In this document: piece after piece, positions 13,315 through 27,745 of the stretch
Layout of the letters: each line of letters opens with the position of its first letter
How positions within the stretch are numbered: position 1 is the stretch's first letter
Assembly: GCA_015664885.1 (NCBI GenBank)
Contig: DQPL01000089.1
Coordinates: 1 to 64,000 of the forward strand
Direction: 5' to 3'
Length of the DNA stretch: 64,000 bases
From: Gemmatimonadota bacterium
GTDB taxonomy: Bacteria; Gemmatimonadota; Gemmatimonadetes; Longimicrobiales; Gaopeijiaceae
The notes under the pieces: generated by a model
Database searches by the model: none
What the model saw: only the letters and a program-made list of their open reading frames with translations
Told to the model about the DNA's origin: nothing
Position numbers and translations under genes: made by a program

Positions 13315-13432
13315 TCACGAACGGACAGAAGGGTGAAACCGAGACTCCAGGGGCGCCGTAAGGGGCTGCGAGCGCCGGCAGACCTCTCGCCGAACGCACG
13401 AAGCACGACCAACGAAAAGAGGATGTAGAGAC

Positions 13433-14461
13433 ATGGCGGACGATCAGGACGACACCGTAGACCAGACGGGCGACGATGGGGCCCAAGCCGGTAGTGATGG
13501 GGCGAAAGCACGCCGCATCCTAACCGATATCGCGCCGCACTCCTGGGAGCACCCGGCCGACAAGGCCGCTCTCCAGGCGCTTCGGCGGATCCCGGTATTC
13601 GATGAGGTTCTTAGAAAGATCTTCGGCTTCATGACCGAACGCGCGTTCCGTCTGGCGTTCCAGGCGAGCTCGGTGAGGATCAGCGATAAGCAGTTCCCGA
13701 AGATCCATGCGATCTACAAGGAGTGCCTCAAGACACTCGACGTAGAGGAAGAGTACCCGCTCTACATCTCACAGACGCCGATCGTCAATGCGGGTGCTTG
13801 GGGGATGGAGAAGCCCTTCATCATCCTGAACTCGGGAACGGTACGGCTTCTCGACGACGACCAACTCGCCTACGTGATCGGCCACGAGATCGGTCACATC
13901 ATGAGCGATCACGTTCTCTACAAGTCGATGACGGTGATCCTGCTCAACCTGGCGACGATGGGTTTCCCGATCGTTGGCTTGGCGGCTCGCGCGATCTTGG
14001 TCGCTCTGCTCGAGTGGCAGCGCAAGTCCGAGCTCTCTTCGGACCGGGCCGGATTGCTCACGGTCCAAGACCCTGAGATCGTTCTCGGCACGATGCTCAA
14101 GATGGCGGGCGGTGGCGAGCCGGAGGAAACGAGCCTGCAGGAGTACATCATTCAGGCCGAGGAGTACCGTGAGGGTGGCGACGTGGTCGACCAGGTCTTC
14201 AAGGTGCTCAACATGCTGGCGCAGACACACCCCTTCTATACAATCCGGGTTAGCGAGTTGCGGGCCTGGATCGAGACCGGCGACTACGACCGTATCGTGC
14301 GCGGGGAGTACGCACGCCGCGGCGAGCCCGATCCCGCCTACAAGGACGACCTCAAGGCAGCCGCTTCGTCGTATGCCGACGACGCGAAGGACTTCGTGGA
14401 CAACATCGCGGATGCCGCCAAGCGCATGGGCTCGGACTTCATGAGCGGCTTCAAGAAGTAG
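13433..14461 (+). CDS. M48-family metalloprotease with membrane segment
   Basis: A 342-residue zinc peptidase. The HEIGH motif (residues 151-155) gives the two histidine ligands and catalytic Glu, and the third ligand is probably the Glu in KSELSSDRAG near 199. A hydrophobic stretch at about 164-193 lies between them, as in HtpX-type enzymes. The N-terminus is acidic and shows no signal peptide, while the C-terminal 40 residues are charged and helical. A likely role is membrane or envelope protein quality control. The ATG follows AGAGGATGTAGAGAC and the gene is closed by a strong terminator, so it seems to be a single-gene transcript. Confidence 0.88.
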   Translation: MADDQDDTVDQTGDDGAQAGSDGAKARRILTDIAPHSWEHPADKAALQALRRIPVFDEVLRKIFGFMTERAFRLAFQASSVRISDKQFPKIHAIYKECLKTLDVEEEYPLYISQTPIVNAGAWGMEKPFIILNSGTVRLLDDDQLAYVIGHEIGHIMSDHVLYKSMTVILLNLATMGFPIVGLAARAILVALLEWQRKSELSSDRAGLLTVQDPEIVLGTMLKMAGGGEPEETSLQEYIIQAEEYREGGDVVDQVFKVLNMLAQTHPFYTIRVSELRAWIETGDYDRIVRGEYARRGEPDPAYKDDLKAAASSYADDAKDFVDNIADAAKRMGSDFMSGFKK

Positions 14462-20441: not shown

Positions 20442-20678
20442 GACAGCGAGGGACGCGACGGCTTAGATTCGGGGGCCCGACTGCGACACGAGCCGAAGTC
20501 GAAGGAGGGCGGAAGTTATGGGAAGCGGTAGGGAGCCTCAACGTCCGGAGCCGCCGGAGCCCGGCTCATTCACCCACGGCAGGACACGGATCCTCTGGGC
20601 GACATCGACTACGCACAGATCGATGATCGCGAGCTGGCCACGCTCGCTGCAGGTGGCCGCGAGCCCGCGTTCCGCGAG

Positions 20679-21194
20679 TTGCTCTCCCGGTACGAGCGTC
20701 CGGTGTTCTCGCTCATCTACCGAATGGTGAGAGACCGAACACTGGCGGAAGACCTGGCGCAAGAGGCGTTCATTCGTGCCTTCAACGCGATCGGCACATA
20801 CAAGACCAGCTACAAGTTCAGCAACTGGATCTTCAAGATCGCGAACAACCACACCATCGATTACCTACGCAAGCGGAAGCTCGATACGATCTCGATCCAC
20901 GGATCGCCCCATGCGACGACTGCGGACGAAGTCTCGCAATCGCAGTTGGTGATCGTATCAAAGGACGAGAATCCTCAGGAATTTGTTGAGAACCGTGAGC
21001 TCAGCGGGCAGATCGAAGAGGCCATTGGAGAGCTCCGCGAGGAGTACCGCACCGTGATTCAGCTACGCCACGTCGAGGGATACGCCTACGATGAGATCGC
21101 GGACATCATGGAACTCCCGCTGGGGACGGTGAAGACCTATTTGCATCGCGCCCGCTCCGAGCTCAAGAAACGTTTGTCTCACCTGGTTTCTTGA
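20679..21194 (+). CDS. ECF-type RNA polymerase sigma factor with disturbed 5' end
   Basis: The protein carries sigma-2 (RYERPVFSLIYRMVRDRT...EDLAQEAFIRAF and FSNWIFKIANNHTIDYLRKR) and sigma-4 with a helix-turn-helix (YAYDEIADIMELPLGTVKTYLHRAR). The coordinates begin at the first permitted start, TTG 20679. However, clear sigma-2 sequence (DDRELATLAAGGREPAFREL) continues upstream in the same frame to about 20586, and no ATG, GTG or TTG occurs before an in-frame stop at 20529. An ATG at 20518 with an ideal GGAGGG lies in another frame. A one-base frameshift between 20532 and about 20600, or an unusual start codon, is therefore likely. The anti-sigma gene follows. Confidence 0.85.
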   Translation: MLSRYERPVFSLIYRMVRDRTLAEDLAQEAFIRAFNAIGTYKTSYKFSNWIFKIANNHTIDYLRKRKLDTISIHGSPHATTADEVSQSQLVIVSKDENPQEFVENRELSGQIEEAIGELREEYRTVIQLRHVEGYAYDEIADIMELPLGTVKTYLHRARSELKKRLSHLVS

Positions 21195-21339
21195 CGTATG
21201 ACATATCACCAAAAAGACCCGTGCGAAGCGCGTTCTCGGGCCCCAGCGGCACGACGTCCCAGACGCCGTTTTTTATGAAACTTCGTCAATCGCGGGCCCG
21301 TAGGGGCAACCTGAGGAGTCGCAGCGGAGTTGAGACCGC

Positions 21340-22290
21340 ATGACCGGTATGTCCAGCGAGCATTTGAGCGCCGAAGTTTTGCAGGCGTTCCTCGAGGGCG
21401 ACCTTCCCGGCCGGGAGGGAGCCTCGGTCGAGCAGCACCTCGGATCTTGCGCCCGTTGCGACTCGGAACTCGAAGTCTGGCGCTCGCTATTCTCGGAGCT
21501 CGGTAGCCTCCCTTCGCGGCGCCCGAGTGAAGGCTTTCGGGATCGAGTGATGGCGGATGTTCGGATTCTGGCTCCGCTGCCGCTCGCAGCACGCATCCGA
21601 AACCGAATCGTGGTGCTCCTCCCGGGTCGCAGCGACGGCCACATTTCGGCGGGCCGACTTCAGGGGATGCTTGAGGGCCTAGTGCCGGCCACGCAGGTCG
21701 CGCGGATCGAGGCCCACTTGAGTTCGTGCGGTCAGTGCGCCAGCGAGGCCGACGCCTGGCGGTCGGTGTTCGCAACGCTCAATCGCCTGCCGCGCCTCGA
21801 GCCGGGTGAGCAGTTCGCCGGTCGGGTCATGTCAGGCATGCGCATGCCCGCGGCTATCGCGGCCTCCGTTCGTGTACCCGCATTGCACAAAGCCGTCGCG
21901 TTGGCCGGGAAGCTCGTACCTCAGACAAGGACTGCGTGGGCCGCGCTCTCAGGCATCGCAGTCGCGCCTGCGGTCACGGCCGGACTGGCCTTCTCCGCGT
22001 TGCTCTCGCACCCGACCTTCACGCCGGGCTCGCTCGTCGCTTATGCGTGGTGGCAGTTCAGCGATGTCGTATCGGCAGCGTGGACCGCGCTCTCCGGGTT
22101 GGTGTTGGACATTGCCCAGGTCACAGGTGCTCTCTCGCTTTTCGACGGACTCGCCGCGGCACCGTTGGTGGTGGCCGGGGGCGTTCTTCTTTACGGGGCC
22201 GCGAGTGTGATCGCGCTACGCGTTCTCTATAAACACGTTTACGCCAACCATCCCTTGGATGGACGATATGTTCAAGTTTCTGCTTCGTAG
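21340..22290 (+). CDS. Anti-sigma factor with two tandem zinc-binding modules
   Basis: A 316-residue probable membrane anti-sigma factor following the ECF sigma gene. Two copies of a ZAS/zf-HC2-like module are visible, at residues 7-71 and 100-168. Each has an N-terminal His, then HLxSCxxC (H33, C37, C40 and H126, C130, C133), then a similar helix (EVWRSLFSELGSLP and DAWRSVFATLNRLP). Hydrophobic segments follow at about 203-223 and 272-295, giving probable membrane anchoring. Most anti-sigma factors have one such module. The start may be the ATG at 21340 or at 21349. The 145-base gap upstream holds a GAAACTT...CGTAGG pair that loosely resembles ECF promoters. Confidence 0.85.
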   Translation: MTGMSSEHLSAEVLQAFLEGDLPGREGASVEQHLGSCARCDSELEVWRSLFSELGSLPSRRPSEGFRDRVMADVRILAPLPLAARIRNRIVVLLPGRSDGHISAGRLQGMLEGLVPATQVARIEAHLSSCGQCASEADAWRSVFATLNRLPRLEPGEQFAGRVMSGMRMPAAIAASVRVPALHKAVALAGKLVPQTRTAWAALSGIAVAPAVTAGLAFSALLSHPTFTPGSLVAYAWWQFSDVVSAAWTALSGLVLDIAQVTGALSLFDGLAAAPLVVAGGVLLYGAASVIALRVLYKHVYANHPLDGRYVQVSAS

Positions 22291-23881
22291 CTCCCTGACG
22301 GCCCTTGGCCTCGCTCTTCTGGCCGCGACTTCTACGCTCGAGGCACAGCTTCGCGACGTGGTATCGAAAGAGGTCGCGGTCGGTCGCTCAGAAGCCGCAC
22401 TCCGACTCGAATTCTCCGACGACGGCGCGCTCGAGATCGCGTTCGAGGATGGTTTGGTTGTGATCGATGGGGACGTTGTCGGCATGTTCGAGCCAGGCGA
22501 CCAACTCGAGGCCGCGTGGCGGTCCTTGTTGGGACAGGCCGTGTCTCTGGACGATGGCGAGCTCGCGATCATGCTCTCCGACTGGTCGGTTCCAGCCGGC
22601 CTGGCAAACGACCTGGCCGACCTGGCGCGCGAAGTCGACCGTGCGTTGGAAGACGCGTTGTCTTCGTTCGAGATCACGGTCAGCAGCAACTCATCGAGGG
22701 CGCCGGTCACAGTCGCGGGCGATCCCGGGTCCCTGCTGTCACTGTTTCTCAACGCGACCGGTGAGCTGGGATTGCTCGGGGAAGCGCTCGCGGGATTGAG
22801 AGGCGAATTCGCCATTCATGTCGATGAGGATGTCGTCGTGCCGGCGGGCTCGACCGTCGACGGTACGCTCGTGGTGATCCAGGGCGACGCGCGCATCGAG
22901 GGCGAAGTCGACGGCGACGTCATCGTGGTGGATGGCACGCTGGAGCTGCTCGAAGGGAGCCGGGTCCGCGGAGAGGTTCGACTCGCAGATGCTCGCTTGG
23001 TCCGCAACCTCGGCACCGTTGAAGACGGCTTGGTCGATCTACTCGAGGAAGAGCGTGTCAACGAGTCCGAGATTCGCAGCAAGATCCGCGAGGAAGTACA
23101 AGCGGAGCTCCGGGCTCAGCTGCGTCGTGAAATCCGCGACATGACCCGCCTGGAGTTCAGCGATGCAGACAATGGCTTCTCGCTCATGGCCCCATTCCGT
23201 TCGGTCTTCCGAGGGGTCGGCGAGCTCGTCAAGAACTTGATCAGCATTTTGGTCCTGGGTCTTCTCGGGGCGGGCGCAGTCGCCTTCGCCGGCACCAAGG
23301 TGGACACGATCGCCGACACCGCTCGGCGCTCTCCGGGCCGTTCCGCGATGGTCGGTATGGCGGGCACACTCCTGCTGATTCCCGTGTGGCTTCTCGGAGC
23401 CGTGGCACTCACGGTCTCAGTCATCGGCATTCCGGTTGCGCTCGTATGGCTACCCCTTTTCCCGCTGGCCGCGTGTGCCGCGGGTGTGATGGGTTACGTG
23501 GTGGTCGCGCGCAATACCGGCGAGTGGCTCGCCGACAGCGAATACCCTTGGACCGGATGGATTCGCAAATCCAACCCGATCTATACGATCTTCGGTGGCC
23601 TTTTTGGACTGATGCTCGCCTTCATGGCGGCCAACGTGCTCTCGATCACACCGTTCCTCGGGTTCCTCACCGGACTGCTCGCGTTCGCCGGATCGGTGGT
23701 CACCTTCTTCGCGATCCAGATCGGATTCGGCGCGGTCTTGCTCACTCGAGCCGGCCGGCGCAACGAGTGGGCGTCTACCTACGATCCCGATGCCGCGTGG
23801 GAACGAGCGATGGACGTGGATGTCGAAGTGGACGTTGACGAAACAGCTGACAAGGTCGACGAGGACTCCGACGATGCGTAA
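22259..23881 (+). CDS. Membrane protein with bactofilin-like segment
   Basis: A 540-residue protein overlapping the end of the anti-sigma gene. It has an N-terminal signal peptide (about 1-30) and an acidic exported domain. Residues 186-250 form a beta-helical repeat segment of the polymer-forming (bactofilin-like) type: VPAGSTVDGTLVVIQGDARI, then EGEVDGDVIVVDGTLELLEG. A charged coiled region at 260-300 follows, then about five membrane segments (324-345, 365-385, 388-417, 441-462, 465-497). The tail is acidic (Asp/Glu-rich after 505). The layout suggests an exported assembly platform anchored in the membrane and controlled by the sigma/anti-sigma pair; that role is inference. Confidence 0.75.
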   Translation: MDDMFKFLLRSSLTALGLALLAATSTLEAQLRDVVSKEVAVGRSEAALRLEFSDDGALEIAFEDGLVVIDGDVVGMFEPGDQLEAAWRSLLGQAVSLDDGELAIMLSDWSVPAGLANDLADLAREVDRALEDALSSFEITVSSNSSRAPVTVAGDPGSLLSLFLNATGELGLLGEALAGLRGEFAIHVDEDVVVPAGSTVDGTLVVIQGDARIEGEVDGDVIVVDGTLELLEGSRVRGEVRLADARLVRNLGTVEDGLVDLLEEERVNESEIRSKIREEVQAELRAQLRREIRDMTRLEFSDADNGFSLMAPFRSVFRGVGELVKNLISILVLGLLGAGAVAFAGTKVDTIADTARRSPGRSAMVGMAGTLLLIPVWLLGAVALTVSVIGIPVALVWLPLFPLAACAAGVMGYVVVARNTGEWLADSEYPWTGWIRKSNPIYTIFGGLFGLMLAFMAANVLSITPFLGFLTGLLAFAGSVVTFFAIQIGFGAVLLTRAGRRNEWASTYDPDAAWERAMDVDVEVDVDETADKVDEDSDDA

Positions 23882-24710
23882 GGCCCTGTACATCGCCGCG
23901 GTGACGGTTGCCGTGGCCCCCGCGCTGCTCGCGGGCCAGAGCTGGCGGACCGTGACCATGTCCCACCAGATCGAAGACAACAGCGAAATTCGAGTCTTCG
24001 TGGAGTACGGCGCTGGTCACCTCAAGATCGGAGCCGCGGATGGGGGCGTTCTGTACCGCATGAACTTGCGCTACGACGAAGACATCTTCGAGCCGGTTTC
24101 GGATTTCTCAGGAGATCGCCTGCACCTCGGGGTAGAGTCGATCGGCCGTGGCTTCAACATCGGTCGCAACAAGCAGAGTGGCGAGCTCGACCTGGAGTTC
24201 GCCCGTGGGATTCCGATGGACATGGATCTCGAGTTCGGAGCGGTACGAGCCGACATCGACTTTGGCGGCCTTGCCTTGACGGACCTCGATTTGAGCACGG
24301 GAGCCTCGCAATCGACCATCGACATCTCGGAGCCCAACTCAGTGGGCATGTCGACGGCACGCTTCGAGATCGGCGCGGCCGAGTTCGAGGCCCGGCATCT
24401 TGGCAATCTCAACGCCGAACGCATCGAGGTCGACGCCGGCGTCGGACAAGTCACGCTCTGGCTCAACGGTCGCTGGCAGCGTGATGCGAGCGTCTCTATC
24501 GACATGGGCCTGGGGGCTCTCGAACTCCGCGTCCCAGAAGGGCTCGGATTCCGACTCCGAAAGGAGGGCTTCCTCGTGTCCCTGGATTCCGAAGGCCTGG
24601 TCAAGCGCGGAGACTGGTATTACTCGCTCGACTATGAAGACGCCGACCGCAAAGTGACCGTCGACCTGGACGCCGCGTTCGGCAGCGTCAAGGTTGTGTG
24701 GGTTCGCTGA
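23874..24710 (+). CDS. Exported toast-rack/LiaF-C-like protein
   Basis: A 278-residue protein with a signal peptide (residues 1-22, ending LLAGQ) and a repetitive beta-strand body. Regular strands such as LTDLDLSTGASQSTIDISEP, FEIGAAEFEA and IDMGLGALELRVPEGLGFRL resemble the toast-rack fold found in LiaF-type and DUF4097-like proteins, which are often linked to envelope stress sensing. The ATG at 23874 lies inside the end of the preceding gene, so the two are translationally coupled and the longer frame upstream is not used. The precise function is unknown. Confidence 0.7.
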   Translation: MRKALYIAAVTVAVAPALLAGQSWRTVTMSHQIEDNSEIRVFVEYGAGHLKIGAADGGVLYRMNLRYDEDIFEPVSDFSGDRLHLGVESIGRGFNIGRNKQSGELDLEFARGIPMDMDLEFGAVRADIDFGGLALTDLDLSTGASQSTIDISEPNSVGMSTARFEIGAAEFEARHLGNLNAERIEVDAGVGQVTLWLNGRWQRDASVSIDMGLGALELRVPEGLGFRLRKEGFLVSLDSEGLVKRGDWYYSLDYEDADRKVTVDLDAAFGSVKVVWVR

Positions 24711-24739
24711 GTGACACCGAGGTTCGTTAGGAGAGCACC

Positions 24740-24973
24740 ATGATCGGCACGCTACTCACATTCTTCGCAGTGGGCCTCATTACTCTGCTGGTCGCCGGGG
24801 TCGTTCTCTCGATCGTCGGCACGCTTTTCTCTCTGACCTTCGGCCTCGCCTTCTTCTTGCTCTTCAAGGTCGCGCCGGTGCTGTTGGTCGGTTGGATCGC
24901 GGTGAAGATCTTCGAGAAGATGACCGGCGGAGGCTCGTTGTCCGCGGCCGACCGGAAGTGGCTCGGGGAGTAG
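24740..24973 (+). CDS. Small membrane protein at the end of the envelope cluster
   Basis: A 77-residue protein with two closely spaced hydrophobic helices (about 3-27 and 30-57) and a short soluble tail ending SAADRKWLGE. A strong AGGAGAG lies seven bases before the ATG. It follows the toast-rack protein after 29 bases and is probably the last gene of the sigma/anti-sigma unit. I do not recognise the family beyond small hypothetical membrane protein. Confidence 0.7.
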   Translation: MIGTLLTFFAVGLITLLVAGVVLSIVGTLFSLTFGLAFFLLFKVAPVLLVGWIAVKIFEKMTGGGSLSAADRKWLGE

Positions 24974-26985: not shown

Positions 26986-27745
26986 ATGAATATCGACCCT
27001 GGCCAGCAACCGTACATCGATCCCAGTCCGGAGGATCTAGGGGCTACGCCCCATATCTCCGACTATTGGACGGTCATCGCGCGACGCCTGTGGCTCGTGC
27101 TGGTGATTTTCACCGTGACGACCGCCTCATCGATCTTCAAGGCCTCGCAATCACGAACCACGTATACCGCCACCGTCGCATTGCAGGTCAACGACCCACA
27201 AGAGCGGTCGTCAGGACTCGTCAATATCCCAAGCCTAGGTGGCCTCAACCTCTTCGTCGATCCGATTGAATCGGAGATCCAGGTTCTCGGCTCCGCCACC
27301 ATTAAGGCAACGGTCGTCGACTCCCGGGGCATGCGGCTGGCGCGCGTGCCCGTCGAGGATGCTCGCTCCTTGATCATGCGGGACGTCTGGGTGGCGCCTG
27401 ATGTGCCCGACTATCAGCCGTTCCGCCTCATCGAGGAATTCGAGGGTCGCTATGACCAGGTCATCATCGACTCACCGCCGGTACTCGCGGTGCATACCGA
27501 CGGGGTGGTCATCGTGCTGCGATCACGGGAAACCAAACAACGTGCGGCCGAGCGCTCGGTCGACCAGTTGCGACACCTTGGAGTGCGCGTGTTCGGCGCT
27601 GTCCTGAACACCGTCACGACCGCAAATCCGGACGAAGAGCTGCTACTTGCAGTACTACTACAGTTACACCCCCACGGGGACGGCTACACAGAGCGGCTGG
27701 GAGCGGTTGCGTGACGGAATGAGCAAGGTGAAATTCTTTGAGTGA
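26986..27745 (+). pseudogene. Decayed bacterial tyrosine kinase (Wzc-type) gene
   Basis: The frame opens with a normal Wzz N-terminus: a membrane helix at residues 35-51, VALQVNDPQ, and IESEIQVLGSATI. At about residue 153 (near 27445) it jumps straight into the end of a BY-kinase domain (YDQVIIDSPPVLAV). The coil, GNVR region, second helix and Walker A are therefore missing. A further short gap follows PPVLAV, where the usual TDA segment is lost. Near 27640 the frame shifts: the Tyr-rich C-terminal cluster (YLQYYYSYTPTG) and the end KVKFFE lie in the +1 frame, with a stop at 27743-27745. In its own frame translation runs on to 27714 in nonsense sequence. It cannot encode an active kinase. Confidence 0.85.

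Follow-up and report, generated by a model that had tools for sequence, protein, structure and literature searches.

An exported membrane protein of predicted bactofilin fold tied to a SigW-type sigma factor in Gemmatimonadota and two other phyla

Gene organization of the locus

The window analysed here is a 64,000-nt stretch of a Gemmatimonadota genome (assembly GCA_015664885.1; genome G000, contig C99), with positions numbered along the plus strand. That strand carries a series of genes coding for an extracytoplasmic function (ECF) sigma factor, a zinc-finger anti-sigma factor, an exported membrane protein of predicted bactofilin fold, hereafter P3, a toast-rack protein and a small membrane protein (Table 1). 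The anti-sigma gene, which runs to 22290, overlaps the start of the P3 gene (ATG at 22268, or 22259), and the last 8 nt of the P3 gene already belong to the toast-rack gene, which begins with the ATG at 23874. These stop/start overlaps resemble those of translationally coupled genes. The same overlaps, with the small membrane-protein gene next in line, had been described in an earlier note on this DNA, and the coordinates bear them out.

Table 1. Features of the locus and of the second promoter site in the window
Feature	Position	Strand	Remarks
ECF sigma factor frame	20562..21194	+	regions 2 and 4; nearest in NCBIfam to SigW models, at scores below cut-off
SigW-type promoter, GAAACTTCGTCAATCGCGGGCCCGTA	21277..21302	+	37 nt 5' of the anti-sigma ATG
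Anti-sigma factor	21340..22290	+	two HxxxCxxC zinc-finger motifs (residues 33, 126); C-terminal hydrophobic helices
P3, exported membrane protein of predicted bactofilin fold	22268..23881	+	537 aa; alternative start at 22259 gives 540 aa
P3 signal peptide	22268..22348	+	cleavage likely before Q27
P3 N-module	22355..22660	+	residues 30-131; strands and helices; pLDDT 89-96
P3 beta-helix, predicted bactofilin fold	22799..23041	+	residues 178-258
P3 membrane module	23180..23743	+	residues 305-492; about five helices; best-conserved part
Exported toast-rack protein	23874..24710	+	278 aa; signal peptide
Small membrane protein	24740..24973	+	77 aa; N-terminal two thirds hydrophobic
Second exact promoter site of SigW type	13335..13360	+	sole other one in the window
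M48 metallopeptidase	13433..14461	+	SigW-type site 5' of the gene

Pfam detects both regions 2 and 4 in the window sigma frame. SigW is its top-scoring NCBIfam model, although the equivalog score is not reached (161.4 vs 209 bits). The adjoining gene product matches the zinc-finger family PF13490 (E 6.5e-12). Two HxxxCxxC motifs are found in 19 of the 25 anti-sigma frames of family f1, one of which has three, and the other families have one or none. The motif is missing from 13 of 60 Gemmatimonadota anti-sigma frames.

Taken alone, the window toast-rack protein matches DUF2154 and DUF4097 of Pfam below their cut-offs. A ten-member profile matches the structure 4qrk of the PDB with an E value of 6.8e-27, which supports a toast-rack domain in this protein. 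It also has a signal peptide, in agreement with the earlier claim of an exported toast-rack protein encoded next to P3. The hydropathy scan of the 77-aa protein reveals one long hydrophobic region. This agrees with the small membrane protein proposed, but its description as a two-helix protein is no more than plausible.

Fold, export and topology of P3

An AlphaFold model of the whole P3 chain was built with 29 aligned sequences (predicted local distance difference test, pLDDT, 81.5; predicted template modelling score, pTM, 0.44). Beyond the N-module (Table 1), the beta segment (residues 181-260) scores 84-95 and the membrane helices mostly >90. When modelled alone, the beta segment reaches a pLDDT of 91.4 and a pTM of 0.81. 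In the whole-chain model, helices flank the beta-helix before (residues 153-174) and after it (258-297).

We aligned Foldseek candidates to the models with VIA-align. For whole P3, the two top structures are both bactofilins, 6ria (Z 9.4; 71 residues, 2.9 A) and 2n3d (Z 8.6; 72 residues, 2.1 A), and the same two lead for the beta segment, with Z values of 8.8 and 8.4. The margin is modest, since the next rows stand at Z 7.6 and 7.8, respectively. A profile of the beta segment also matches 6ria by sequence (E 0.002), and 29 of 41 P3 relatives match the Pfam bactofilin family (PF04519) at E<=0.1. P3 is thus predicted to have a right-handed beta-helix core of the bactofilin kind. A beta-helix had been proposed for residues 186-250 of P3, and the model does predict this fold in that region. 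The membrane module matches no entry in Pfam or NCBIfam, and nearly all invariant residues of P3 fall within it.

A signal-peptide cleavage pattern, [AG]Q within residues 16-55, is present in 39 of the 41 relatives. The hydropathy scan and the AlphaFold helices agree on approximately five membrane helices. Two short loops between them are nearly free of Lys and Arg (0.00 and 0.10 per sequence in the 41 relatives), and 38 of these proteins have a net positive stretch past the last helix. The two longer loops do hold Lys and Arg, yet no more than 18 and 22 of the 41 proteins have a net positive charge there. The signal peptide and this charge pattern fit a beta-helix located outside the cytoplasmic membrane and a C-terminus inside, a predicted topology that we regard as highly likely. 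They also agree with the architecture first proposed for P3, namely a signal peptide, a bactofilin-like beta-helix and several membrane helices.

Conservation in three phyla

A genome scan for P3 gave matches in 253 of 298 genomes. From these we hand-picked 60 Gemmatimonadota loci, one or a few per genus and leaning to high scores, which makes 61 with the window. Hidden Markov model searches detected P3 in all 61 loci, the anti-sigma factor in 60, the sigma factor in 59, the toast-rack protein in 53 and the small protein in 32, with uniform gene order and strand. Some of the misses fall at contig ends (e.g. loci L054 and L071), and L055 has P3 without any partner. The genes therefore stay together in relatives, as expected if the earlier reading of the locus as a unit is right.

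The genome scan also matched a Zixibacteria and an Anaerolineales record. The P3 profile has matches in 98 of 98 Zixibacteria and 76 of 151 Chloroflexota genomes, some of them to the beta-helix alone. We analysed 42 loci, L123, L125 and 20 high-scoring matches per phylum, chosen to include the membrane module; the counts hold for those loci and not for every match. All 42 have a sigma gene upstream of P3; the sigma-P3 pair thus recurs, by sequence, over three phyla. In Chloroflexota, a zinc-finger frame separates the two genes in 19 of 21 loci, and the toast-rack model matches in two loci, once ahead of P3. In Zixibacteria, P3 directly follows the sigma gene in 7 of 21 loci, and a frame of approximately 350-430 aa lies between them in the other 14. 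Four of these intervening frames were tested, and all are DUF4097 toast racks above the cut-off; a toast rack also follows P3 in 9 of the 21 loci. No zinc-finger anti-sigma motif was found beside the sigma gene in the 21 Zixibacteria loci, apart from one unrelated match in L123, but the anti-sigma gene might be elsewhere in these genomes.

Comparison of the 103 P3 proteins, 61 from Gemmatimonadota and 42 from the other phyla, identifies the membrane module as their constant part: it is present in 102, the exception being L054, which is cut by a contig end. The N-module is seen in 50 of the 61 Gemmatimonadota proteins and in none of those from Zixibacteria and Chloroflexota. The beta-helix is present in 90 proteins and gone from 13 that keep the membrane module; therefore, the bactofilin scaffold is not a constant feature of P3. 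All 13 are from Gemmatimonadota, including six of six in family f2, and several have a charged, helix-like stretch in its place. The beta-helix is probably ancestral yet losable.

Promoter and putative regulon

Enumeration of sequence pairs upstream of the Gemmatimonadota sigma genes returned GAAAC-N17-CGTA as the best pair, in 28 of 59 loci, compared with 0.04 matches per 59 in shuffled regions. This site is the same as the SigW consensus TGAAAC-N16,17-CGTA given in a passage of PMC2375139. With spacers of 16 to 18 nt, 58 of the 61 loci have it just 5' of the anti-sigma gene and 32 have it 5' of the sigma gene, so that the system carries the consensus promoter at its own genes, as SigW-type systems do. 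Only 11 other such sites occur in 1,503,354 bases, both strands counted. Given the position of the site in 58 loci and its rarity elsewhere, the anti-sigma, P3 and toast-rack genes very probably form a sigma-driven operon, and we are confident that the sigma factor would drive this unit from its promoter. The earlier suggestion that these genes are targets of the ECF system is therefore well supported. The sigma site is also present in 14 of 21 Zixibacteria loci (0.05 in shuffles) and in 3 of 21 Chloroflexota loci; in the latter phylum, the commonest pair upstream of sigma is GCAAC-N16-CGTA (8 of 21).

The source genome has 20 exact N17 sites, compared with 7 for the reversed pattern used as a control, and thus about two thirds of them may exceed chance. 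The corresponding numbers in three relatives are 14 and 7, 14 and 7, and 12 and 3. For a comparison of putative regulons in four genomes, 50 site loci were taken in and 10 further sites left out. A counterpart of the M48 peptidase with the same promoter type is found in all four. Related PadR regulators have a site in G116, G226 and G000, in the latter ahead of a short, broken-looking frame, and a second PadR type has one in G116 and G265. Small membrane proteins with a site, 28% identical, are encoded in G000 and G265, and an outer-membrane efflux protein has one in G000. Many of the remaining sites fall inside genes and are probably of chance origin. On contig C74 of G000 (L139), a SigW-type site lies 85 nt ahead of a 471-aa frame of no assigned family.

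Elsewhere in the window, a 242-aa frame (26986-27714) by our reading starts like Wzz/Wzc and ends like the C-terminal stretch of Wzc, the middle having apparently gone.

Comparison with known systems

Bactofilins are otherwise known as intracellular scaffolds, whose filaments assemble end to end via the beta-helix. P3 resembles members of this family (PF04519; BacA, TtBac) by its predicted right-handed beta-helix, with 6ria and 2n3d as best structural matches. Unlike these cytoplasmic proteins without signal peptides, P3 is predicted to be exported, and its chain also includes an N-module and about five membrane helices; its beta-helix is shorter, with helices at both ends. The source genome also codes for an ordinary-looking bactofilin on another contig (L001; G000:C130:9302-9592; 91.4 bits; 199-aa open frame), near a frame that we labelled an M23-like peptidase by reading of its sequence.

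The regulatory part is like SigW/RsiW of Bacillus subtilis, with a SigW-like sigma factor, a zinc-finger membrane anti-sigma factor and the same promoter consensus. It differs by separate promoters for the sigma gene and for the anti-sigma/P3/toast-rack unit, by the two zinc-finger motifs of most f1 anti-sigma factors, and by the PrsW protease, of which none was found in the source genome. The toast-rack protein, the multi-helix membrane partner and the regulator within the operon are reminiscent of the Psp and Lia systems, but a Pfam scan of the operon detected no PspA, PspC or LiaI-LiaF-TM domain. Neither PspA nor LiaH is encoded in the operon, and the sole PspA match of the source genome is on another contig, C116. 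Toast-rack contexts with a linked sigma factor are mentioned in a passage of Ravi et al. 2024 (PMC11237479), which elsewhere predicts an intracellular domain, in contrast with the exported toast rack described here; its main text never uses the word 'bactofilin'. Our searches of an open-access library brought up no account of this operon, but an earlier record in ECF re-classification work is possible.

Interpretation

These data are best explained by an envelope-stress operon of the SigW type whose products act on the outside of the cytoplasmic membrane; we consider this somewhat probable as a whole. Under envelope stress, the membrane anti-sigma factor would free the sigma factor, which would then drive the promoter ahead of the anti-sigma gene. 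This would yield P3, the small membrane protein and the toast rack, along with more anti-sigma factor as feedback. Exported P3 would place its bactofilin-fold beta-helix outside, anchored by the five-helix module. Together with the exported toast rack, also beta-helical, it could form a stress-induced complex that protects the cytoplasmic membrane, a job akin to that of the Psp and Lia proteins. We find such a protective complex plausible, at slightly less than even chances. We lean to P3 as an effector because it is encoded downstream of a sigma-type promoter together with the toast rack.

Several observations weigh against this interpretation, besides the losses of the beta-helix. The Pfam bactofilin match to P3 (residues 186-244 of the 540-aa form; E 2e-5) has 25.2 bits, below the gathering cut-off of 27.9. 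Foldseek gave no match at E<=0.001 with the whole model or the beta-helix alone, and bactofilins appear only at ranks 42 and 44 of the list for the latter. For the topology, 29 of the 41 relatives have a net positive stretch ahead of the first membrane helix, a slight discrepancy. The missing PrsW concerns the step that releases the sigma factor, and chance may explain half or more of the genome-wide promoter sites. The window sigma gene has no SigW-type site of its own, nor does its frame have an in-frame ATG, GTG or TTG ahead of the TTG at 20679. A 68-nt stretch that bears the sigma promoter site and an ATG in G226 and G287 is absent, via the same junction, from the two genomes of the window's genus that we compared, the window (20518-20680) and L034 (G116). 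This gap is either a real loss or an assembly error.

Instead of acting as an effector, P3 might regulate the sigma factor or sense for it: the outer beta-helix and the N-module would read the envelope, and the membrane module would signal to the anti-sigma or sigma factor. We consider this possibility less likely, but keep it because what stays constant is the pairing of sigma with P3, seen in all 42 loci examined outside Gemmatimonadota. Moreover, P3 shares one promoter with the anti-sigma gene in Gemmatimonadota, its membrane module bears nearly all the invariant residues, and the Zixibacteria sigma genes have no zinc-finger motif beside them, 7 of 21 being directly followed by P3. Nevertheless, P3 is predicted to expose to the cytoplasm just its short loops and an acidic tail that varies. 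The Zixibacteria anti-sigma gene could lie elsewhere, and the lack of HxxxCxxC proves little since 13 of 60 Gemmatimonadota frames also lack it. In at least three phyla, P3 might also be both sensor and effector, controlling the sigma factor, alone in Zixibacteria and with the zinc-finger anti-sigma factor elsewhere, and, upon induction, building a protective outer-face lattice with toast racks, a combination that we deem rather unlikely.

It is improbable that the outer bactofilin domains of P3 stack into filaments and so scaffold the cytoplasmic membrane from its outer side. The fold is of the right kind, and bactofilins form non-polar filaments according to a passage of PMC12448750. However, this proposal is weakened by the model helices on both sides of the beta-helix, which has approximately 80 residues and aligns only to BacA residues 65-139, and by its losses in 13 of 103 relatives. 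Thus, the exported bactofilin-like protein initially suggested stands by prediction; of the 'envelope scaffold or sensor', the scaffold has lost ground, and a possible sensor draws some support from the Zixibacteria sigma-P3 pairs. Lastly, an ordinary cytoplasmic bactofilin located by chance beside an ECF system is very hard to reconcile with the signal peptides across relatives, the gene order in three phyla and the promoter sites, even though the source genome does have an ordinary-looking bactofilin elsewhere.

On the preferred reading as an envelope-stress operon, the regulatory logic is ordinary and the main product unusual: a membrane protein that is exported, has a predicted bactofilin fold and goes with a SigW-type sigma factor in three phyla. 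The bactofilin fold would thereby extend to the outside of the cytoplasmic membrane. Gene order and promoter both connect it to a stress response of the SigW type, and such responses have hardly been studied in these phyla. The Zixibacteria, with no zinc-finger anti-sigma factor seen beside the sigma gene, offer a natural contrast for telling effector from sensor. For Gemmatimonadota, known largely from metagenomes, the analysis provides a concrete candidate regulon composed of P3, the toast rack, the M48 peptidase, PadR genes and small membrane proteins. Altogether, these findings point to a little-noticed, widespread way of envelope upkeep.

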